Assembly (NCBI RefSeq): GCF_014698145.1
Contig: NZ_JACJSM010000018.1
Span: 53,831 to 117,830 of the forward strand
Source: Oscillatoria sp. FACHB-1406
GTDB lineage: Bacteria > Cyanobacteriota > Cyanobacteriia > Cyanobacteriales > Spirulinaceae
Direction: 5' to 3'
DNA length: 64,000 nucleotides
The translations under genes were made by a program, and so were the position numbers. The notes below the pieces were generated by a model. It saw nothing but the letters and a program-made list of their open reading frames with translations. It made no database searches and had not been told where the DNA came from. Each line of letters starts with the position of its first letter. Position 1 is the first letter of the stretch. This document shows positions 2 to 30,275 of this stretch, piece by piece.

Positions 2-700
2 TTAGTTACTATTCACCGGACGGAACGGATTTAAAAAGTTTAGCATTGGATAAAGATTGCGCGATTGTACCCATAGTTTTCCTTCTCCTCGGAAACGACA
101 AACTAAGCCTTCACCGCCTAAAATCCCCGTTTTTAGCGATCGCCAAGATAACCCGCCTATCGCTTCCACACTGTATTGCAAAGAATCCTCAAACGCGACG
201 ATATAACCCGTATCGACAATATACGCCCCCGAAACCGGAATTTCGATAATCCCGCCGTAGGAACTAAACCAAATATCGCCCTCTCCCGTCGCGCGCACTA
301 AAAACAACGATTCGCCGCTAAAAAAGCCTTTAAATCCCTGAAACTTTGTATCGATTTCAACAGTCGGACTGCACGCCACAAAACCGCCCGATTGCATCAT
401 CAAAGCACGCCCTGCTTGAAGGCGATAATGCTGCACGTCGCCCGGAACCCCAGGAGAAATATACAACTCTCCTCGCGCTTTTTCGGCGGTAAATTCGCTC
501 ATAAATAAAGACTCGCCGCTCAGCATTCGACCGATGCCTTTCATTACGCCGCCCTTCATTTTTGACTTCATCTTAATGTTTGCATCCATCGCTGCCATTG
601 CCGACGATTCGACTAATACCATCTGGTCGGCTTGCAAGGTTAAAATTAACGAAGCATAAGCGGGAGAATGTTCTATTTGGTAAGCAATTTCCTGAACCAT
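2..700 (-). CDS. AIM24 family protein (third of three tandem paralogues)
   Basis: A 232-residue protein of the AIM24/TIGR00266 family, whose biochemical role is not firmly known. It shows the family's repeated glycine-rich beta motifs (SGESLF twice, GGEGLVCRF near the C-terminus) and the AYIVDTGYIVAFE signature. I chose the ATG at 700 because it aligns with the starts of the two upstream paralogues. A TTG at 766 would add 22 residues that have no counterpart in them. It is the last gene of a same-strand trio with short gaps, so probably an operon. The stop codon lies at the very edge of the window. Confidence 0.85.
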   Translation of the reverse strand: MVQEIAYQIEHSPAYASLILTLQADQMVLVESSAMAAMDANIKMKSKMKGGVMKGIGRMLSGESLFMSEFTAEKARGELYISPGVPGDVQHYRLQAGRALMMQSGGFVACSPTVEIDTKFQGFKGFFSGESLFLVRATGEGDIWFSSYGGIIEIPVSGAYIVDTGYIVAFEDSLQYSVEAIGGLSWRSLKTGILGGEGLVCRFRGEGKLWVQSRNLYPMLNFLNPFRPVNSN

Positions 701-19497: not shown

Positions 19498-20127
19498 TTA
19501 TGACTGCGCCCGCAATTCTGGGACTTCCGAAGCATAACTTTGCAATTTTTCAAAATTCAAAGAACCAACAGTCGAACCCCAGACTTGTTCGTGGGTATTA
19601 ATATCAAAACCTCTATCTAAACTGTTAAAAGTTGTTTCTGTAAGCTCAACATCGCTAACGAGATAAGTCTGCTTTCCGTATTTTTCAAACAAACAGTTTT
19701 TCCCTTCAACTCTGCCTCGGAATAAATTGTTTTCCTTATGAAAAATCATCGAGCAATGATAGCGACGCTCGATACAATCCGGTGCGATAGTTTTTAATAT
19801 CTCTAAATCTCGTCCCGCTCCGGCGTAGCGAATTCGATCTCGCAAGCTGTAGTTTTCAATATAAATTTCGCCATTCTGTTCTACAAACCGATGAACGGCT
19901 TGTCGATACGGAGTCCAAAGATCGTGATTATAGACCTGCTCGGAATAAAACCCAATGCCCGAAAAGAAGCCCCAAGGAAGGGGTCTAAAAAAGACGCGAA
20001 TATGAGCATAATTTTTAGAATCAGCAAAGGCTTGTTTTTGATTGCTAAAATCTCCTGCAAGCCAGCAAGCTAACTCGAACATCAGATCGCTTTGACTAGA
20101 AGTATCTATAGATCTTTTTTTATTCAT
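19498..20127 (-). CDS. cpeT: Phycoerythrobilin lyase CpeT (CpcT/CpeT family)
   Basis: A 209-residue T-type bilin lyase with the family signature LACWLAGDFSNQKQAFAD near residues 20-40 and IRVFFRPLP. The C-terminal part resembles other CpcT/CpeT proteins (YLVSDVELTETTFNSLDRGFD, HEQVWGSTVGSLNF). It is expected to attach phycoerythrobilin to the C-terminal cysteine of CpeB (Cys167 in the product encoded at 29115). I chose the ATG at 20127; an upstream GTG adds only four residues. It lies between cpeS and cpeR in the linker operon. Confidence 0.9.
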   Translation of the reverse strand: MNKKRSIDTSSQSDLMFELACWLAGDFSNQKQAFADSKNYAHIRVFFRPLPWGFFSGIGFYSEQVYNHDLWTPYRQAVHRFVEQNGEIYIENYSLRDRIRYAGAGRDLEILKTIAPDCIERRYHCSMIFHKENNLFRGRVEGKNCLFEKYGKQTYLVSDVELTETTFNSLDRGFDINTHEQVWGSTVGSLNFEKLQSYASEVPELRAQS

Positions 20128-20199
20128 AAATGTCAACACGAAAATCTTTTCTTCGATAAAGTTAAATTGATATAAAATTGAGATTTATTAAGTCTTATC

Positions 20200-20730
20200 T
20201 TAAGCCGATAATAAACGGATTTCCGAAGAGAAAGAAGCAGTAACAACGCCATTTCCTTCGCTAGTCTTAATTAAGGAAACTCGCAGGCGAAAGTTGGGAT
20301 TAACAAACCAAATCCGTTCTTCTGCTGCCGCTCTTTCATATTCTGTGAGCAGAATAAATGTGCCATCGTCCCCAATTTCGTAGTTGCCAATCGAAGGAAT
20401 TGTTTCAGCATAACCGCGATCGCGCAGCAATCTTCCAGACCGCAAATTATTAGGACTCGGAATTGGCACTAAAATTGTCGTTCCCTCGAAGGTTTCAGCG
20501 TCATCCCAATCCGATTCTCCTTGCCAACTCATGCGAAAAGGGTTGCTCGCCATTTGCGGTTCGATTTTGTAAGCTTGACACAACTCCACTACTTCGGCAT
20601 CGTCTTCAGCTAACGGCACGATTTCTATGGTTGAAGTGACTTGCTCGAAGTGACTAAACGCGAGATGATGGGCGCTACGTTGAGATTTCCAACATCCTAG
20701 AGAAAGCTCTACAAATTCACGAATATCCAT
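20200..20730 (-). CDS. cpeS: Phycoerythrobilin lyase CpeS (CpcS/CpeS family)
   Basis: A 176-residue S-type lyase with a lipocalin-like fold. The N-terminal signature is MDIREFVELSLGCWKSQRSAHH. Family strands include FRMSWQGESDWD, ILVPIPSPNNLRSGRLLRDRGYAE, and ERIWFVNPNFRLRVSLIKT. It should ligate phycoerythrobilin to the central cysteine of CpeB (Cys82 here). A 410-base gap separates it from cpeD upstream, so cpeSTR may have a promoter of its own. Confidence 0.9.
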   Translation of the reverse strand: MDIREFVELSLGCWKSQRSAHHLAFSHFEQVTSTIEIVPLAEDDAEVVELCQAYKIEPQMASNPFRMSWQGESDWDDAETFEGTTILVPIPSPNNLRSGRLLRDRGYAETIPSIGNYEIGDDGTFILLTEYERAAAEERIWFVNPNFRLRVSLIKTSEGNGVVTASFSSEIRLLSA

Positions 20731-21140
20731 TGCAAAAATCGGGAAAGAGTCTAAAAGCTATCTCGTCTATTTAAAAAGTAGAGCGAATTAACCCCTAATC
20801 CGCTCTATAAGTTAAGTAGGAGATATTTTAAGTAACAGCTATTTCAGCTAGGAGATAGGGTTATTTTATCATGAAAATATGCAGAAGTCCAGGATAAAAA
20901 TCGCTTTTTTGGAGGAAAGAAGCAGAGTTTTTATGAGATAAAAACCCTACATACTCGCTATAGCAACTGCTACGGTCAGTCGCTCCAAAAAACCAGCACT
21001 CCCACAACTAAAGCATCAATTCTCAAAACTTGCCTTTGCCAAAACACTTGGGTTGCTTTTTAATTGCTCGATCGCGGAATCAAACAACCCAAGACTCCAT
21101 AGATGGGCGTGCCTTTATTCCTGCAAATTACCGAAAGTCC
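20731..21140 (-). other. 410-bp gap within the cpe linker/lyase operon
   Basis: This region is unusually long for an operon of this type, which elsewhere has gaps of 29-103 bases. It holds a 9-bp hairpin (CTTGGGTTG at 21047-21055 pairing with 21085-21093, 29-base loop) shortly after the cpeD stop. It is AT-rich, with candidate -10 motifs such as TAAAAT (20865-20870 region) closer to cpeS. No coding sequence or remnant of a third linker was seen. Confidence 0.5.
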
Positions 21141-21908
21141 TTAAGCGACCTCAGTGATGCTAATAATCGTTCCGCCCGATCGCTGAATGCGCTGAATTTG
21201 CGAACTCATGCGATCGCCAGGAACGAGATATTCCGTCGTACTGACTCGGCGCGGACTGTCAAATTTGAAGCCTTTTGCCCGAATCTTGAACATTTTCGCC
21301 GTTGCATCTTTGTAACCGCTCGAACGACCGCCTTTAGAAGGTAAAGAAACCTTCGTTGCGCCGTTAGTTGCTAAGTCAGAAACCAAGCGCGCCGACGTAA
21401 AAGCACTATCGACTCCGGCATAACCCTGATAAAGAGAAAGCGTGCGATTGTAACCGACATTCTTCTGTCCGATTTGCGTTTTAGCGCCTTGATAGAAAGG
21501 CACGACATTTTCGCCAAATTGAGTTTGATACTCGTCGCTATCCAAATAAGAATCAATTTCGGCTTCGTAGCCTTCTTCAATGCAGCGGCGAACGTGCTCG
21601 GAAAGTTCGGCTTGGTCGCGGGGAGCGCGCCCTAATAAATGCTTGAAGTTGAGTTCGACAAAGCGATAGGGAGCGCAGGATTCAAAGTAACGGCGGCGAT
21701 AAAAGTCAGATTTGGCGACGGCGCGGACAAACTCCCGTACTGTTAAATCGCCGTTGGCTAACTGCGATTCTGCCGTCGTTAACCGCTCGCTTTCCATCAC
21801 GTGAGGGTTGCCCAAAACTTGCTTGTAAACGGCGCGAATCGTGCCAGACACTTCATCAGCACTTCTTGAAACGCGGAGTTCGACGGGATTCTCTAACACT
21901 ACACTCAT
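21141..21908 (-). CDS. cpeD: Phycoerythrin-associated rod linker (CpeD/CpeE type)
   Basis: A 255-residue phycobilisome rod linker. A Pfam00427-type linker domain occupies about residues 18-150 (VYKQVLGNPHVMESERL, FVRAVAKSDFYRRRYFES, RFVELNFKHLLGRAPRDQAE, YEAEIDSYLDSDEYQTQFGENVVPFYQG). A CpcD-like C-terminal cap is at about 195-255 (MFKIRAKGFK, RRVSTTEYLVPGDRMSSQIQRIQ, GTIISITEVA). It joins phycoerythrin hexamers within the rod. The ATG is preceded by AAGGAGA. It is 29 bases after cpeC. I cannot separate CpeD from CpeE by eye. Confidence 0.9.
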   Translation of the reverse strand: MSVVLENPVELRVSRSADEVSGTIRAVYKQVLGNPHVMESERLTTAESQLANGDLTVREFVRAVAKSDFYRRRYFESCAPYRFVELNFKHLLGRAPRDQAELSEHVRRCIEEGYEAEIDSYLDSDEYQTQFGENVVPFYQGAKTQIGQKNVGYNRTLSLYQGYAGVDSAFTSARLVSDLATNGATKVSLPSKGGRSSGYKDATAKMFKIRAKGFKFDSPRRVSTTEYLVPGDRMSSQIQRIQRSGGTIISITEVA

Positions 21909-21937: not shown

Positions 21938-22813
21938 TTAAACCGGGGTGATGCTGGCGATGGTGCCGCCGGAAGCATGGATGCGTTGGTACTCTTGGCT
22001 GAGTCGGTCGAAGGGGACAAAATACACCTGGTTGCTGCGACGGAAGCGGGAAACGCGACTGACTTTACCGGGAGAACCATAGCCGGTAACTTCGATGCGG
22101 TAGACTTTGCCGCTTTCGCCAACGCCCGTTCCCAAGCGCGAGGGTGCAGTGGTGGCCGGATCGCGGAACGACCAACCGTTGCCAACACTACCGCCCGAGG
22201 GAGGAATAACAGGCAGGGGCGTTTCTTGGATGACGTATTTGTTGAGGACGGGTTTTTTTCCGGAGATGCTGCCTTTGAGGTCGCTGCTGGATGCACCGCG
22301 CAACAGGGCAAACATATGCGTAAAGCCCACCATGTTTTGACCGGGCTTGGTTTTGTAGCCCCGGTAGTAGGGGACGATGTTTTCTCCGTAGGCGCTTTGA
22401 TATTCATCGCTGTCGAAGTAGGAGTCGATTTCTGCTTCAAAACCTTGGGTATCTAGAAGGGTGCTGTGGGCGCGCATTTCTTCTAAGCCGTCGGGGGCGC
22501 GTCCAAGCAGGCGTTTGAAGTTGAGTTCGATGAATCGATAGCGGGGGCAGGTATCGAAGGTACGGGAGCGATAGAGGTCGGATTTTGCGATCGCGCGTGC
22601 AAACTCGCGGACGCTAAATTCGCCGCGTTTAAACTGGGATTCAGGAACGACAGCGCGTTCGCTCTCCATCACGTAAGCATTGCCGAGAATTTGTCGGTAG
22701 ACAGCGCTAATTAGGCTTTCGGTTGCTTCTGTCGATTGACCGGGGACAGCTTCTAAGGGCGGCGTTTCTTCAAATAAAGCAACGCCGAGTTGTGAGGCAG
22801 GTCCAAAAGTCAT
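21938..22813 (-). CDS. cpeC: Phycoerythrin-associated rod linker CpeC
   Basis: A 291-residue rod linker beginning MTFGPASQLGVALFEETPP, which matches CpeC proteins. The linker domain spans about residues 30-155 (VYRQILGNAYVMESERAVV, FARAIAKSDLYRSRTF, EAEIDSYFDSDEYQSAYGENIVPYYRGY). The CpcD cap spans about 232-291 (YRIEVTGYGSPG, RFRRSNQVYFVPFDRLSQEYQRI). It anchors a phycoerythrin hexamer in the rod. It is the first gene of cpeC-D-S-T-R. A GGAG lies ten bases before the ATG, and a CcaR-type G-box array lies 67-110 bases upstream. Confidence 0.93.
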   Translation of the reverse strand: MTFGPASQLGVALFEETPPLEAVPGQSTEATESLISAVYRQILGNAYVMESERAVVPESQFKRGEFSVREFARAIAKSDLYRSRTFDTCPRYRFIELNFKRLLGRAPDGLEEMRAHSTLLDTQGFEAEIDSYFDSDEYQSAYGENIVPYYRGYKTKPGQNMVGFTHMFALLRGASSSDLKGSISGKKPVLNKYVIQETPLPVIPPSGGSVGNGWSFRDPATTAPSRLGTGVGESGKVYRIEVTGYGSPGKVSRVSRFRRSNQVYFVPFDRLSQEYQRIHASGGTIASITPV

Positions 22814-22879: not shown

Positions 22880-22923
22880 AAAGGGGAAAGAAATCGGAAA
22901 GAAATCGGAAAGATAACTGAAAG
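22880..22923 (-). promoter_or_regulatory. CcaR G-box array upstream of cpeC
   Basis: On the minus strand four contiguous 11-base units begin with CTTTC: CTTTCAGTTAT, CTTTCCGATTT, CTTTCCGATTT and CTTTCCCCTTT (22923 down to 22880). The two central units are perfect tandem copies of the direct-repeat target described for CcaR (CTTTNCNATTT). The 11-base spacing places every unit on nearly the same face of the helix. The array lies just upstream of AT-rich -10 candidates (TAATAA/TAACTA) and 67 bases before the cpeC ATG. Confidence 0.85.
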
Positions 22924-23128
22924 AAAAGGGAAAAATGACTAATTCTAGACAGCAAGCTCGGGAATAAATATCTAATTTAACGGAACCTCAAATGAGATCT
23001 CTGAAACATAACTTTACAAATTGTTGTCAAGGGGGGTGAACCTCACTTTCTTTCCGAGTTTTCTTCAAGAACGAACCCTTCTTTGATAAGTTGGAATTGA
23101 GGGGTAAACGATGGGAAGAGAGGGTTGG

Positions 23129-23803
23129 ATGAGGATTCTTGTAGTTGAAGACGATCGCCGCTTGGCAGAAATCTTAGTAGAAGCCCTAACCGACCAATTC
23201 TATGTCGTGGATATGGCTTTAGAGGCAGAGTCGGCTTTAAAACATATCAAGACTAGCGACTACGATCTCCTGTTGCTCGATGTCATGTTGCCCGAACTCG
23301 ATGGCATTAGTTTTTGCTCGCTGTTGCGCGCGCAGGGCTATCAAATGCCGATCCTGATGGTAACGGCGCGCGATACGGTCAGCGATAAGATTTCCGGGCT
23401 AGATGCGGGGGCAGACGATTACATCGTTAAACCCGTCGATTTGGGGGAACTCTTCGCTCGCATTCGCGCTTTATTGCGTCGAGGCAATACAGCTTTACCG
23501 CCCGTCTTAGAGTGGGGAAAGTTACGCCTCGATCCGAGCGTTGGCGAAGTTCGCTATGCCCAAACCTCCATCTATCTTACGCCCAAAGAATTTTGCATTC
23601 TGGAATTGTTAATGCGTCACGGTCGTCGCCTCCTCAGTCGTCGTGCCATCATCCAAAATATTTGGCAGAACGAAGATACTGTCGAAGAAGATACGGTCAA
23701 AGTTCATGTCAGAAGTTTGCGTCAGAAGTTGAAAGGGGCGGGCGCGCCGGAGAATTTAATTGAAACAGTTCACAGTCGCGGTTATCGACTTTTTGAATTA
23801 TGA
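23129..23803 (+). CDS. ccaR: OmpR/PhoB-type response regulator, CcaR-like
   Basis: A 224-residue transcription factor. The receiver domain spans about residues 1-115, with the acidic pair EDD at 7-9, phospho-acceptor Asp in LLLLDVMLPELDG, Thr in VTARD, and Lys in DDYIVKPVD. A winged-helix DNA-binding domain follows (LTPKEFCILELLMRHGRRLLSRRAIIQ, VKVHVRSLRQKL, VHSRGYRLFEL, quoted in pieces). It is divergent from cpeC, next to G-box repeats matching CcaR sites, and convergent with a CcaS-like kinase, so CcaR is the likely identity. I chose the ATG at 23129 (MRILVVEDD). An upstream ATG at 23111 adds six residues. Confidence 0.85.
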   Translation: MRILVVEDDRRLAEILVEALTDQFYVVDMALEAESALKHIKTSDYDLLLLDVMLPELDGISFCSLLRAQGYQMPILMVTARDTVSDKISGLDAGADDYIVKPVDLGELFARIRALLRRGNTALPPVLEWGKLRLDPSVGEVRYAQTSIYLTPKEFCILELLMRHGRRLLSRRAIIQNIWQNEDTVEEDTVKVHVRSLRQKLKGAGAPENLIETVHSRGYRLFEL

Positions 23804-23972: not shown

Positions 23973-26597
23973 TTACGAATTATGAGTAAGGGTTATCGTA
24001 ACGGTGGTTCCGTTCCCCGTTTCGCTATCAATTTCAATCGTGCCGCCGTGTAAATCGACGCACTTTTTAACCACGACTAAACCCAGTCCGGTTCCGGCGA
24101 GGTGGCGGACATTTTTACCGCGATGAAAAGCTTGAAAAAGTTGTTGGCGATCGCTGCTCGGAATTCCCAATCCGCGATCGCGCACGCTCAATTGGCAACT
24201 TTCGCTCGTGCAGGTGAGGGAACATTGAATTTGACCGCCAGCGGGCGAATATTTAATGGCGTTGGAGAGTAAATTTGCCAAAATCGAGCGCAGTAATTTT
24301 TTATCGACGTAAGCCCTGGTATGATTCCCCCAACAGATAAAGTGCAGGGAATGCTGAGCGCCCGCACTCAGTTGCATTTCTTCGACGAAATGGCGGCAAA
24401 ATTTTTCGAGGTCGATCCATTGAGGTAGAAATTCTAATTTGCCGGTTTCAGCGCGATTAATCGTGAGAATATCGTCGAGAAGTTGCACCATATTTTTAAC
24501 GGAATCTTGGATGCGATGCAGGTTGCGATCGCGTTTTTCCAAGTTTTCCCAAGCGCTGGCAGAAGTTTCCAGCAATTGGGCCGCGGCTAAAACGGTACTT
24601 AAGGGCGTGCGAAATTCGTGAGACACCATCGAAAAAAAACGAGTCTTCACAGCACTCAATTCTTTTTCTCTCTCTAAGGCCAACCGCACTTCATCAAGCC
24701 GCTTGCGTTCGGTGATATCGCGAGAATTGACGACGATTTTAGGAGAGGGTGCGCCTTCGACAAGGGGCTGTCCGGTGGGGAATGCGTCGATCGCTTTGGG
24801 TAATGCTTCAAAAGTGCGCCACTGTCCGGAGCGATCGCGGCGGCGAAACTCGATCGGGCCGGTAACTTCGGCATTGTAGAGCGTTTGGCTGAGAATCGGA
24901 CATAGATGCGCTAAATCGTCGGGGTGGATGTAAGTAAAAAAGTTTGTACCGATTAATTCTGGGGGGGCGTAACCCAAAATCTTCTCGACCGAGGGGTTTT
25001 CGTAGTGAATCGTGCCGTCGGGGGCGAGGATAGTGATGATATCTAGGGCATTTTCAATCAAAGAACGGAAGCGTTCTTCGCTTTCGCGCAGGGCGGCTTC
25101 GGTACGTTTGCGCTCGCTGATGTCTCGCTGCACGGAAATCCAGTGAGTATAGCGTCCCTGGCGATCGGCAACGGGAACGATGCTGAATTCTGCCCAAAAC
25201 TCGCTGCCATCTTTGCGGTAGTGGAGGACTTCGATGCTGGCGGTTTCCCATGAGGAGAGGGCGGCTTGGACGCGAGCGATGGCGGCGCGATCGGTGCATT
25301 TTCCCCAGAGCAGATCGAGAGTTTTGCCGAGGGTTTCTTCGAGTCGATAGCCGGTGAGGGTGATAAAAGCTTGGTTGACGTAAACAATCGGCGGTCCGGG
25401 AGCGGTTACGGGGCGTGCTTCGGTGACAATGACGGCATCGTTGGTATTGACGACGACGGATTGCAGCAGGCGCACTTGTTCGGCTTGGCGCTTTTGTTCG
25501 GTGATGTCGGCGACGACGGCGACTAAACCGTTAATGTTATCTTCGCTATCGGTGAGGGGGGCGGCGGAAAAGACGATATCGATCGCGCTGCCGTCTTTTT
25601 TGGTGCGGCGGACTTCTAAGCTGGGCGGCGTAATCCCCGCTAAAATGTTCTGCCAGATGCTTTGATAGTCGAGATCGGTTTCGGCGAGGACGGGGTTGGC
25701 GCGATCGCACACTTCGGCTTCCGTCCAGCCAAACATCCGTTCGGCGGCTGGATTCCAGACTTTGACTCGCCCTTGTAAGTCGAGGGTAAAAATGGCGCGG
25801 GGCGAGGCAGAAATTAAGGAGAGTAGGGTTTGATTGGTGTGGTGTAAGGCTTCGTTGGTTTTGGCAAGTTCTTCGGTACGCTGCTGGACTCGGAGTTCGA
25901 GTTCGGCGTTGAGTTGGCGCAGTTGTTCGTAGAGTTCGGATTGTTGAATCGCGATCGCGACTTGGGTGGCGAGTTGCTTCATCAAGTCGATTTCGAGGGG
26001 CTGCCAGGTGCGAGGGGCGCTGCATTGGTGAGCGATGAGGAGTCCCCAGAGGTGGGGAGGAGGGGTTTCTCCGGCTTCTCTGCTATCGAGTTCTCGCAGT
26101 TGTTGGAGGATGGGGACGACTAATTTGGCGCGGACTCCAAATTCAGAGAGAAATTCTGTCAGACAGTCTTCTACGTCATCGCTGTCGATATCCGCGATCG
26201 TACCGACTTTTCCTCGTGCGTAAGCTTCGTGATACTCGGACGGAAAAACTTCCGGCGGAAAGGTACGCCCTAAAATTGCTTCGTACTCGGGCAGCACGGA
26301 CTCGGTAATTGCCGTTCCCGTCTCATCTCCCCAAAGACGATAGATTAAGACGCGATCGACGACCAGAAATTGCCGGACATCGGCCACCGTTCTCGTCAGC
26401 ACTTCCTCCAAGTCCAAGGATTGGCGAATATGATGCGCGATTTGATTGACCAGTCGTTCTCGTTCGGTTTGCTGTCGCAGGTTTAACTCGGCTCGGCGGC
26501 GCTGGGCAATCTGTCGCAGCAGGCAAGGAACGCTAAAGGCCGCGATCGTGAGGGGAATGAAAGCACTGACAATGGGCAGTAGACTTGCCTGCATCAT
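23973..26597 (-). CDS. ccaS: CcaS/RcaE-like cyanobacteriochrome histidine kinase
   Basis: An 874-residue sensor kinase. A membrane helix lies at about residues 5-28, and a phytochrome-type GAF at about 60-222, ending LWGLLIAHQCSAPRTWQP and QVAIAIQQSELY. Three PAS domains follow (about 255-375, 378-500, 510-640), then a HisKA/HATPase unit with His660 in VSHEFRTPL. Within the GAF, Cys145 sits at the canonical bilin position. It is followed by Leu146 instead of His, with Lys158 thirteen residues on and Glu116 before it: the Leu/Lys/Glu pattern reported as the protochromic triad of green/red receptors RcaE and CcaS. It is 98 bases after the pebA-pebB-phycobiliprotein genes on the same strand and convergent with ccaR. 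The third PAS makes it longer than Synechocystis CcaS. Confidence 0.85.
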   Translation of the reverse strand: MMQASLLPIVSAFIPLTIAAFSVPCLLRQIAQRRRAELNLRQQTERERLVNQIAHHIRQSLDLEEVLTRTVADVRQFLVVDRVLIYRLWGDETGTAITESVLPEYEAILGRTFPPEVFPSEYHEAYARGKVGTIADIDSDDVEDCLTEFLSEFGVRAKLVVPILQQLRELDSREAGETPPPHLWGLLIAHQCSAPRTWQPLEIDLMKQLATQVAIAIQQSELYEQLRQLNAELELRVQQRTEELAKTNEALHHTNQTLLSLISASPRAIFTLDLQGRVKVWNPAAERMFGWTEAEVCDRANPVLAETDLDYQSIWQNILAGITPPSLEVRRTKKDGSAIDIVFSAAPLTDSEDNINGLVAVVADITEQKRQAEQVRLLQSVVVNTNDAVIVTEARPVTAPGPPIVYVNQAFITLTGYRLEETLGKTLDLLWGKCTDRAAIARVQAALSSWETASIEVLHYRKDGSEFWAEFSIVPVADRQGRYTHWISVQRDISERKRTEAALRESEERFRSLIENALDIITILAPDGTIHYENPSVEKILGYAPPELIGTNFFTYIHPDDLAHLCPILSQTLYNAEVTGPIEFRRRDRSGQWRTFEALPKAIDAFPTGQPLVEGAPSPKIVVNSRDITERKRLDEVRLALEREKELSAVKTRFFSMVSHEFRTPLSTVLAAAQLLETSASAWENLEKRDRNLHRIQDSVKNMVQLLDDILTINRAETGKLEFLPQWIDLEKFCRHFVEEMQLSAGAQHSLHFICWGNHTRAYVDKKLLRSILANLLSNAIKYSPAGGQIQCSLTCTSESCQLSVRDRGLGIPSSDRQQLFQAFHRGKNVRHLAGTGLGLVVVKKCVDLHGGTIEIDSETGNGTTVTITLTHNS

Positions 26598-26695: not shown

Positions 26696-27274
26696 CTATC
26701 CATTCTTGATAAATTCAGCCATTTGTTCGATTAAATGGTCGAAGTAAGGCTCCCCTATATTTTTTTGTTCTGCTGGAAGAGCATCTAATGCTGCGGATTT
26801 CAAACGCTTTAAGCCACAGAGCATGGCGGGCAGAGGAACCCGCATTTCCTCATAAAGCAAGCGCATTTTTTCTAACCCATCCGGACTTGTAAACTGCGGA
26901 TTCTTTGCCGCAATTCCATAGGTAATACAGCGCAAAAAATGCCAAAAATCTCGCCAGCAAGCCTCAGCCCGTTCTGGAGGGTAAAGATCGCCTTCCGGAG
27001 CCGTGATTTTCGGGAAGTTTTCTAAAACTGCCTGCCGCGCCGTACTGATTGCATCAGCCGCATTATCTCTCAAAAATCGGACGCTTTCTAAAGCTAAACT
27101 TGAATGAATTGAGAGGGTTTTTAATTTCGCTAAATCTTCGTCGGTTAAATAGCGCTTTTCATCATCCGCCCGACCAATAATTTCAATAATTTCAGGGTTA
27201 TAATTTCCTTTCCAAGTTTGCACGTCTAAGGTGCGAGCTTCAGGAATTAATTCTTTCGCTCGTCTGCTAATCAT
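26696..27274 (-). CDS. Orphan phycobiliprotein-like globin in the pebAB unit
   Basis: A 192-residue protein of the phycobiliprotein (globin-like) superfamily, of unassigned role. The core helix AEACWRDFWHFLRCITYGI aligns with the bilin-binding helix of CpeB ([19 protein letters not shown]). It retains Cys106, Arg108 and Asp109, equivalent to Cys84/Arg86/Asp87, so it could bind a bilin covalently. The segment EKMRLLYEEMRVPLPAMLCGLKRLK matches the following helices of beta subunits. It is 21 bases after pebB and has no partner subunit. It may be a bilin carrier or acceptor for PebB product, or a regulator. It is not CpeA/B, CpcA/B or a core allophycocyanin as far as I can judge. Confidence 0.8.
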   Translation of the reverse strand: MISRRAKELIPEARTLDVQTWKGNYNPEIIEIIGRADDEKRYLTDEDLAKLKTLSIHSSLALESVRFLRDNAADAISTARQAVLENFPKITAPEGDLYPPERAEACWRDFWHFLRCITYGIAAKNPQFTSPDGLEKMRLLYEEMRVPLPAMLCGLKRLKSAALDALPAEQKNIGEPYFDHLIEQMAEFIKNG

Positions 27275-27295: not shown

Positions 27296-28039
27296 TTACT
27301 GTCGATACTGCAAGTACCGTTCTAAATCGAACAAAAAACCGTGAATATATTCCTCGGTCCATTCTTCCCCATAAAACCGGGTAAACATTCCCCGGGCGGG
27401 GTCTTTTTCTGCTCGATACCTAATATAACGCAGTTGAGCAGCTTGAATGGCATCTAAGGCTTGTGGCTTGGTGACGGGTTCTGCGGCAGCGACGAAATCT
27501 AAATAAGCTTGTAAGTAGTCCTTAAACGCTTTGTAAACGTAGGTTTGGACGACGGCGGTTTCTTGGGGGCGAGTCCAGAGAAACGCGGGGGAAAAGAACG
27601 GTTTTGCTTCCTCCGGGAAATCGCCGCCCCAAGGAAGAAACTGCCGATAAGATTCAAAAATCGGTAGAATCGGGTTACTGTATTTCTCCTGATAAGCGGC
27701 ATTGTGAAAGAGGGGCTGCATATCGAGAGCAATCAGGTGTCCGCCCGGGAGGGTGACGAGATCTGCCCCGAAAAAGGGCAATTCGTAGTTGAGTTGCGGG
27801 AAGATGACGAAATTGAGAACTTGCAGGGAATTTCCGCCTTGGACGTGGGCGGCGCGAATTTGCCTCAGTTTGGGCGATTGAAAGCCATAGCTGGTGGTGA
27901 GAACGGTTTCTTCTCGCTTGCCTTTTCCGATGGTTGCTTCTTTGCGATCGAACCCTTCTGGGATGGGGTAAGGTTCGAGAGGGAGGCACTCTTTGAGTAA
28001 GGCGAGGGCTGTTTCTAAAAAGGGTTGGTAGAGCGACAT
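27296..28039 (-). CDS. pebB: Phycoerythrobilin:ferredoxin oxidoreductase PebB
   Basis: A 247-residue ferredoxin-dependent bilin reductase that converts 15,16-dihydrobiliverdin to phycoerythrobilin. It is recognised by [88 protein letters not shown] and the C-terminal [17 protein letters not shown] (each in shorter form). The conserved Asp of LIALDMQP belongs to the substrate pocket of the family. It starts three bases after the pebA stop, so the two are co-translated and their products may channel the intermediate. Confidence 0.95.
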
Positions 28040-28042
28040 TAT

Positions 28043-28768
28043 TTAGCTCGGAACGGCAAGGGGAACGGCATCTTCAAATAAAAATTCATGCAGGAATTTT
28101 TCAGACCATTCATGACCGAAATAGCTGCTAAATAATCCAGATGCGGGGTCGCGTTCGGCGCTGTATTGGTCGTAGTCTTTCTGCGCTTTGGCAACTCGCG
28201 CGATCGCGTCCGGTTGAGTTAGGGGTTCGGCTCGTTCGAGCAGTTGCCAGTAGAGTTGAATGTATTCTTTATAAGCCGGAAGTAGTCGGTTAACGACGGT
28301 ATCGGAATCTGTTTTTGCAAACAGCAGATAAGGGGAAAAGTATTGATTTGCATCGTAGAACTTCATGGGTAAGTCTTGGGCGAGTTCGCTGTATTTATCG
28401 CGCAAGCTTCGCATCGGTTCGATGTATTTTTTGAGGTAAGCTTCGTCCCGAAATAGGGGTTGAAAATCTAAAACAACTAAAATTTTCTTTTTGCCGAATG
28501 CTAAAAAGTCAATTCCCAATAAGGGCAGGTCGTACTGATGGCTGGGATAAAGAACGCTGTTAAAAATTTGGGCGGTTTCGCCAGCGTTGATGTAGGTGTA
28601 GCGAATTTTGCGGAGTTGAGGGCATTGATAGCACCAGCTTTCAATCATGGCTGGATTTTTGCCCCGCTGACTGACTTGATATTCCAATTCTGGGAGAATC
28701 GGGCGACCCCGTAACTCGAAGCGACGGAACAGTTCTTGTTCGAGGTGGTGTAGAAAAGGCTGAAACAT
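28043..28768 (-). CDS. pebA: 15,16-dihydrobiliverdin:ferredoxin oxidoreductase PebA
   Basis: A 241-residue bilin reductase that makes 15,16-dihydrobiliverdin from biliverdin IXa using reduced ferredoxin. Family features include WCYQCPQLRKIRYTYI, IFNSVLYPSHQYDLPLLGIDFL, and KILVVLDFQPLF with the active-site Asp, plus DPASGLFSSYFGHEWSEKFLHEFLFE (shortened). It is the first gene of pebA-pebB-orphan phycobiliprotein and is divergent from cpeB, so pigment and chromophore synthesis share one intergenic control region of about 346 bases. Confidence 0.95.
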   Translation of the reverse strand: MFQPFLHHLEQELFRRFELRGRPILPELEYQVSQRGKNPAMIESWCYQCPQLRKIRYTYINAGETAQIFNSVLYPSHQYDLPLLGIDFLAFGKKKILVVLDFQPLFRDEAYLKKYIEPMRSLRDKYSELAQDLPMKFYDANQYFSPYLLFAKTDSDTVVNRLLPAYKEYIQLYWQLLERAEPLTQPDAIARVAKAQKDYDQYSAERDPASGLFSSYFGHEWSEKFLHEFLFEDAVPLAVPS

Positions 28769-29675
<907 letters not shown>

Positions 29676-29693
29676 GGGATGCGAGGGTTCTAA

Positions 29694-30275
<582 letters not shown>

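Follow-up and report, generated by a model that had tools for sequence, protein, structure and literature searches.

Of the described systems that come closest to the locus studied here, the first is CcaS-CcaR of Synechocystis sp. PCC 6803 (light-colour acclimation of type CA1), with a membrane-anchored GAF-PAS-kinase, the regulator CcaR, and a tandem G-box of 11-bp units, as the accessible text of PMC5121610 and PMC8256508 describes. Its target is cpcG2/cpcL, and its kinase has two PAS domains, whose removal tightened regulation, with one construct reversed (accessible text of PMC5121610). In Geminocystis NIES-3708 (type II, CA2), cpeC and cpeR belong to a CcaR-linked operon (PMC4424290). In Fremyella diplosiphon (CA3), the receptor is RcaE, whose partner proteins differ from those of CcaS according to the accessible parts of PMC9415938 and PMC4417701. 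We analysed a 64,000-nucleotide stretch of Oscillatoria sp. FACHB-1406 (contig NZ_JACJSM010000018.1, positions 53,831 to 117,830; hereafter the window), in which a sensor histidine kinase gene lies among phycoerythrin genes. We identify this kinase as CcaS and propose, with a probability of about 0.72, that, likely membrane-anchored and switching between green and red, it would act through CcaR on a G-box array before cpeC-D-S-T-R, and that CpeR would in turn activate both cpeBA and a pebAB-aplA-ccaS unit containing the sensor gene itself. What is new here is how CcaS is wired in this clade, not the sensor.

The window shares with PCC 6803 the kinase layout, the linked CcaR, and the tandem G-box. 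Unlike the system described there, its CcaS has three PAS domains and, as putative target, a phycoerythrin linker operon; moreover, its ccaS follows pebAB-aplA, and its G-box has CTTTCCGATTT and not CTTTACGATTT as second unit. With Geminocystis, it shares cpeC and cpeR in a CcaR-linked block. Compared with CA2 species, this block adds cpeD, cpeS, and cpeT (a comparison of gene content, not of Geminocystis gene order), ccaS follows pebAB and meets ccaR tail to tail, and the G-box is an array (the Geminocystis G-box itself stands outside this comparison). With RcaE, the kinase shares four pocket residues (Glu, Cys, Leu, and Lys; E/C/L/K below) and 47% GAF identity, whereas RcaE belongs to another clade and carries a two-residue insertion.

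The sequence-only reading, made from the letters of the window, had called the kinase CcaS-type and named a GAF tree as the check on this call. In a maximum-likelihood tree built from 258 GAF rows, the GAF of the window kinase indeed falls among the RcaE/CcaS receptors, within a CcaS clade of 41 rows (Shimodaira-Hasegawa-like approximate likelihood ratio test, SH-aLRT, 100). This clade includes all 32 named loci (L041-L072; L and G numbers are our handles for loci and genomes), among them Synechocystis salina (L054) and two Calothrix loci (L053 and L063), whose strains appear with CcaS in Table 1 of PMC9415938, a source accessible in part. RcaE lies in a clade apart from it (14 rows, SH-aLRT 97; 25 rows, 99, in its wider form), and we rejected an RcaE identity on this ground. 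Most GAFs lacking the E/C/L/K pattern form a third group (164 rows, SH-aLRT 99). The tree comes from a quick search without bootstrap and does not settle how the CcaS and RcaE clades join; it omits pieces below 150 amino acids, matches below 90 bits, non-CLK matches below 118 bits, and most E/C/L/K protein-search matches of less than 70% identity. Because the tree places it in the CcaS clade, the window kinase is, judged by its sequence, a CcaS, i.e., a member of a known family, an ordinary and well supported assignment with which the CcaR partner and the G-box agree. Relatives were taken from the best 120 of 4650 matches of the protein search and the best 80 of 565 of the locus search; in places, the same contig carries two names (L041/L170, L044/L176, L047/L175, L070/L187), and row counts exceed genome counts. 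In addition, L041 is G511, L182 is G496, L188 is G657, and L219 is G529.

The domain layout is also that of CcaS, i.e., an N-terminal helix (from hydropathy), followed in Pfam by GAF (residues 62-217), three PAS stretches, HisKA (651-719), and HATPase_c (765-871). The H, N, G1, and G2 boxes are all present, and HisKA and HATPase_c are intact. The N-terminus holds a single hydrophobic segment (best 19-residue window 9-27, mean Kyte-Doolittle value 2.17), which likely anchors the protein in the membrane; the membrane helix and the PAS repeats announced by the sequence-only reading are thereby recovered. Its placing of the gene next to cpeC was right as to the neighbourhood but loose, the response regulator gene standing in between. 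It had also singled out one PAS more than in Synechocystis CcaS. The difference is real, three against two, but not special: in a full-length alignment of 30 CcaS rows from named loci, three PAS were counted in 21 (one of which, L045, breaks off in the kinase domain), two in 8, and one in 1, open frames of 600 amino acids or less (L052, L056) being left out. Three PAS are thus the usual state and the two-PAS form a minority, and we rejected the third PAS as a special trait.

Glu116, Cys145, Leu146, and Lys158 are all present in the GAF domain at the positions first proposed, and alignment with RcaE pairs FPPE116VFP with FPQEVFP, C145-L146 with CL, and RAK158L with KAKL. The protochromic triad is numbered Glu217/Leu249/Lys261. 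The spacing from Glu to Leu is 30 here and 32 in RcaE, as had been claimed, because the Glu-Cys stretch is longer by two residues in RcaE; in a 14-row GAF alignment (A1) in which E, C, L, and K are invariant, this insertion is confined to RcaE and two RcaE-like rows. The pattern is retained in 32 of 32 named loci and is not a matter of chance, a GAF match at E≤1e-58 being found in 64 of 388 genomes of the order. Among the loci of its own genome (L001-L011), the window GAF alone carries E/C/L/K, and the nearest paralogue reads E-C-M-E. A Leu adjacent to the Cys is described for the green/red receptor pocket in the accessible text of PMC9415938. Cys145 is predicted to bind phycocyanobilin, for which a third bilin reductase gene of the genome, likely encoding PcyA, would be the source, and green/red switching is predicted likewise. 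When solved structures were searched by sequence, RcaE came first (8k9o, 167 bits; 7ckv, 146 bits). The GAF fold predicted from a 39-row alignment has a mean predicted local distance difference test (pLDDT) score of 86.7 and a predicted template-modelling (pTM) score of 0.83. In Foldseek, the top six matches of this model are chains of a dual-sensor kinase GAF; RcaE comes seventh with 8k9o (template-modelling score, TM, normalised to the query length, 0.70; overall root-mean-square deviation, rmsd, poor at 11.7) and at ranks 22 and 25 with 7ckv (rmsd 2.2 and 2.1). The list also includes GAFs of phytochromes and engineered fluorescent proteins of GAF type. Since these matches are spread over the bilin GAF types, the model shows a fold common to bilin-binding GAFs and, taken alone, does not single out CcaS.

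The regulator encoded beside ccaS is 63-83% identical to those of the 25 named ccaS loci that contain one, and its gene is convergent with ccaS and divergent from cpeC. Two exact G-box units CTTTCCGATTT stand in tandem at 22891-22901 and 22902-22912, i.e., 78-99 bp upstream of cpeC, and 21 of their 22 bases equal those of the functional Synechocystis site, CTTTCCGATTTCTTTACGATTT, given in the accessible text of PMC8256508. The pattern CTTTNCNATTTCTTTNCNATTT has one exact match in the whole 5.47-Mb genome, the one before cpeC, and its exact-match variant has 0 reversed-control matches there; a chance origin was rejected on these two counts. The two locus features by which CcaS is recognised, an OmpR-type CcaR encoded close by and a tandem G-box ahead of a phycobilisome gene, are both found, and a CcaR box before a phycoerythrin linker/cpeR operon, which marks CA2, is found as well, with possible terminators before the cpeR-like gene. 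Of the 25 named loci with ccaR, all but L064 (24 loci) have a G-box-like pair (first unit with at most one mismatch) beside this gene. Single units within one mismatch occur in the window at chance level (29 against 35.6 expected); one of them, CTTTCCGAGTT (23050-23060, plus strand), lies about 50 bp before the start of ccaR and could be autoregulatory. Contigs 3 and 8 of G000 encode large multi-domain regulators (frames of 708-821 amino acids) that match CcaR along its length at 50-55% identity.

The window and its relatives depart from other CcaS systems in this box. The scan of the 388 genomes requires an exact first unit and so misses variant boxes; it finds the tandem pattern in 31 genomes, and the reversed control gave 0 among the rows listed. 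The second unit contains CTTTAC in 25 and CTTTCC in 6, and outside the clade of the window it reads CTTTAC or nearly so. In five of the six CTTTCC genomes (G000, which is that of the window, G496, G511, G529, and G657), the second unit repeats the first exactly, and all five have ccaS behind pebA-pebB; in the sixth, G477, it reads CTTTCCGTTTT, and no pebAB is found beside ccaS in the stretch examined. Further units with at most three mismatches lie in phase with the core; they were counted by script, the cpeC-ccaR DNA alignment being too scrambled. There are three in the window, five in L041/G511, and six in L188/G657 (each 0 in 1000 dinucleotide shuffles), and one each in L182/G496 (16/1000) and L219/G529 (11/1000), the largest array, that of L188, reaching as many as eight phased units. 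From 28 sources, 24 were scored (L044, L054, L072, and L178 have no exact core): 17 of the other 19 loci show no extra unit, and the close relatives L070 and L177 show one each (11 and 21 per 1000). CcaR itself is altered. All 6 pebAB-clade rows (from five genomes) have Val at position 191, in the DNA-binding domain, where all 41 other rows, some of which count one genome twice, have Pro; seven more positions are uniform in the clade and found in at most one other row; regulators below 60% identity or 180 aligned residues were dropped from this comparison.

The position of ccaS is the other departure. The order pebA-pebB before ccaS is found in the window and in 5 of 21 genome stretches, six genomes in total, and in one of the 32 named loci, L041, whose contig is that of G511. 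An aplA-like gene intervenes between pebB and ccaS in the window and G511 and lies elsewhere in G496 and G529; the pebAB-linked G551 has no ccaR in its 10.7-kb contig. Of the 25 named loci with ccaR, 23 have a ccaS that points away from this gene, beyond the G-box; in L041 and L070 the two genes are tail to tail. In a full-length CcaS tree (duplicate genome L170 omitted), the six pebAB-linked rows fall inside one 14-row clade (SH-aLRT 100), the remaining eight members being database proteins without gene context; with those omitted, the pebAB label needs one change. Gene order, the 98-bp gap between aplA and ccaS, and the absence of a terminator-like site in this gap (in a consensus scan that is at chance level overall) suggest that ccaS is co-transcribed with pebAB-aplA.

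A block of about 40 bp precedes both pebA and the divergent cpeB-cpeA genes (phycoerythrin, or PE, element). A matrix built from five relatives, with the window excluded, scores the pebA site at 37.7 bits and the cpeB site, which has the correct orientation, at 30.9 bits, while the next-best of about 128,000 window positions reaches 16.0 bits. In 1.9 million further positions (some duplicated), all matches above 20 bits other than training sites and their duplicates (L046, L174, L178, and L221) lie just before a cpeB of 81-84% identity; three of these cpeB genes also match cpeA weakly. As background, CpeR also controls pebAB. The title of Cobley 2002, as cited in the reference list of PMC2246261, names CpeR as an activator of cpeBA and places its gene in cpeCDESTR, and for this reason CpeR is the natural candidate to act at the PE element, which makes the latter a concrete candidate CpeR site. 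Among the titles listed for CpeR in the open-licence literature, none concerns its DNA site, and among the matches listed in that literature, titles and abstract openings mention no expanded G-box array, pebAB-ccaS operon, or 40-bp element.

We thus propose the following circuit. In green light, active CcaS would phosphorylate the neighbouring CcaR, which would occupy the G-box array and raise cpeC-D, with cpeS-T-R rising via read-through or a second promoter. CpeR, likely the product of the last gene, would then act on cpeBA and, through the shared 40-bp element, on pebAB-aplA-ccaS. Since ccaS would stand within this CpeR-driven unit, more sensor would be made once the response starts, likely a positive feedback. 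That the loop CcaS, CcaR, CpeR, CcaS forms a steep, hysteretic green/red switch with a memory of light colour is a tentative suggestion, which we consider rather unlikely; on this reading, ccaS would have joined the pebAB operon in one clade, and the switch would differ from the graded response expected of two-unit G-box systems.

Several observations weigh against the proposed circuit. With up to two mismatches, CTTTNCNATTTCTTTNCNATTT has three real matches in the genome (two of them in the array) and two reversed-control matches, and therefore only the exact match is distinctive. The 410-bp gap between cpeD and cpeS holds a pair of terminator-like hairpins along with a promoter-like site of the extended -10 type (20779-20950, minus strand), so that cpeS-T-R may be only partly under the G-box; these hairpins are the main sequence evidence against a single cpeC-D-S-T-R operon. 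The last gene of this block presumably encodes CpeR, for which there is no Pfam model. No G-box within one mismatch occurs in the pebA-cpeB intergenic region; a direct CcaR box before pebA/ccaS was rejected for this reason, and any CcaR effect on ccaS must therefore be indirect. In its own genome, the PE pattern with at most three mismatches finds only the two window sites (reversed control 0), and it was built from these two sites themselves. PE-element matches are few, the distant cpeB-like gene of L219 (58%) having none above 20 bits. In G529, a distance of about 190 kb separates the block ccaR-array-cpeC-D-...-S-T-R from pebAB-ccaS. The ccaS frame of L188 (G657) is interrupted near the kinase domain in that assembly, which makes it either a pseudogene or the product of a sequencing error. 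Lastly, two promoter-like sites lie inside aplA (27090-27062 and 26893-26865, minus strand). Consensus scans of promoters (12 against 13.2 expected) and of terminators (17 against 16.7) are at chance level, and therefore such single sites are weak evidence either way.

These internal sites, at chance level in the scan as they are, would suit an ordinary CA2-type CcaS-CcaR system without feedback, in which ccaS has a steady promoter of its own and came to lie behind pebAB by genome shuffling. Such a system is a serious possibility, somewhat short of even odds, and most CcaS loci examined do have ccaS elsewhere. Against it, the pebA-pebB-ccaS order has been retained in six genomes of one clade, an aplA-like gene intervenes in the window and G511, and no terminator-like site precedes ccaS. 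It is quite improbable that the receptor has drifted to another colour or to blindness despite the four residues kept: the GAF is just 47% identical to RcaE and its photochemistry is a prediction, but the key residues, the kinase boxes, and the place in the CcaS clade are kept, and the GAF fold prediction is confident. More improbable still is an RcaE-like kinase controlling phycoerythrin and phycocyanin via RcaF/RcaC (CA3), although no family-level search was aimed at RcaF/RcaC. In its favour, RcaE is the closest solved structure by sequence, and the Fremyella operon, judged by the Cobley 2002 title cited in PMC2246261, likewise runs cpeC-D-(E)-S-T-R. Against it, the GAF tree sets the window kinase apart from RcaE, the two extra Glu-Cys residues are found in the three RcaE-type rows of A1 and not in the others, one single regulator of OmpR type adjoins the kinase, and the locus has a G-box.

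The remaining genes of the locus are given in the table below. The orphan phycobiliprotein between pebB and ccaS has allophycocyanin alpha-B as its nearest solved chain (82.5 bits) and is probably AplA, a name to be taken as a lead; AplA is described as ApcA-like and unlinked to the phycobilisome in the accessible text of PMC2246261. In 243 genomes of the order, an aplA-like gene (E≤1e-25) is present in 93, pebB (E≤1e-60) in 93, both in 85, and neither in 142, i.e., the aplA-like gene and phycoerythrobilin synthesis co-occur strongly. A CpcL-type linker under the G-box would add CA1 to the CA2 pattern. Both linkers of the G-box block carry a CpcD domain; the genome has 8 linker-domain matches, and the tail read for one of them, the C33 protein, is polar.

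Table. Features of the ccaS locus in the window (position 1 is the first letter of the stretch).
Feature	Position	Strand	Basis or remark
cpeR-like activator gene, 101 amino acids	19089..19394	minus	no Pfam match; presumed name, by place in relatives' CcaR-linked operons
cpeT-like bilin lyase	19498..20139	minus	Pfam CpeT
cpeS-like bilin lyase	20200..20730	minus	Pfam CpeS
cpeD-like rod linker	21141..21908	minus	PBS_linker_poly and CpcD; presumed name, by order
cpeC, phycoerythrin rod linker	21938..22813	minus	PBS_linker_poly and CpcD; name from the sequence-only reading and gene order
G-box array, five in-phase 11-bp units	22880..22934	minus	two exact, three with 2-3 mismatches
ccaR-like OmpR-type response regulator	23111..23803	plus	Pfam Response_reg and Trans_reg_C; Asp57 phospho-acceptor; V191
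ccaS, sensor histidine kinase	26597 to 23973	minus	open frame, 874 amino acids; Pfam, GAF tree, hydropathy
aplA-like orphan phycobiliprotein gene	26696..27274	minus	Pfam Phycobilisome; between pebB and ccaS
pebB	27296..28039	minus	NCBIfam phycoerythrobilin:ferredoxin oxidoreductase, above cut-off
pebA	28043..28768	minus	NCBIfam 15,16-dihydrobiliverdin:ferredoxin oxidoreductase, above cut-off
40-bp PE element before pebA	28828..28867	minus	block of about 40 bp conserved in six genomes
40-bp PE element before cpeB	28958..28997	plus	second-best site with matrix trained without window rows
cpeB (29115-29675) and cpeA (29712-30275)	29115..30275	plus	Pfam Phycobilisome; presumed names, by setting in the sequence-only reading

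CcaS-CcaR serves both as a model for light-colour acclimation and as a widely used optogenetic switch. A clade with a copied G-box unit, a grown array, an altered CcaR, and a relocated ccaS offers a natural experiment on promoter architecture and feedback, and its comparison with the other CcaS systems would bear on the steepness and the memory of a two-component response.

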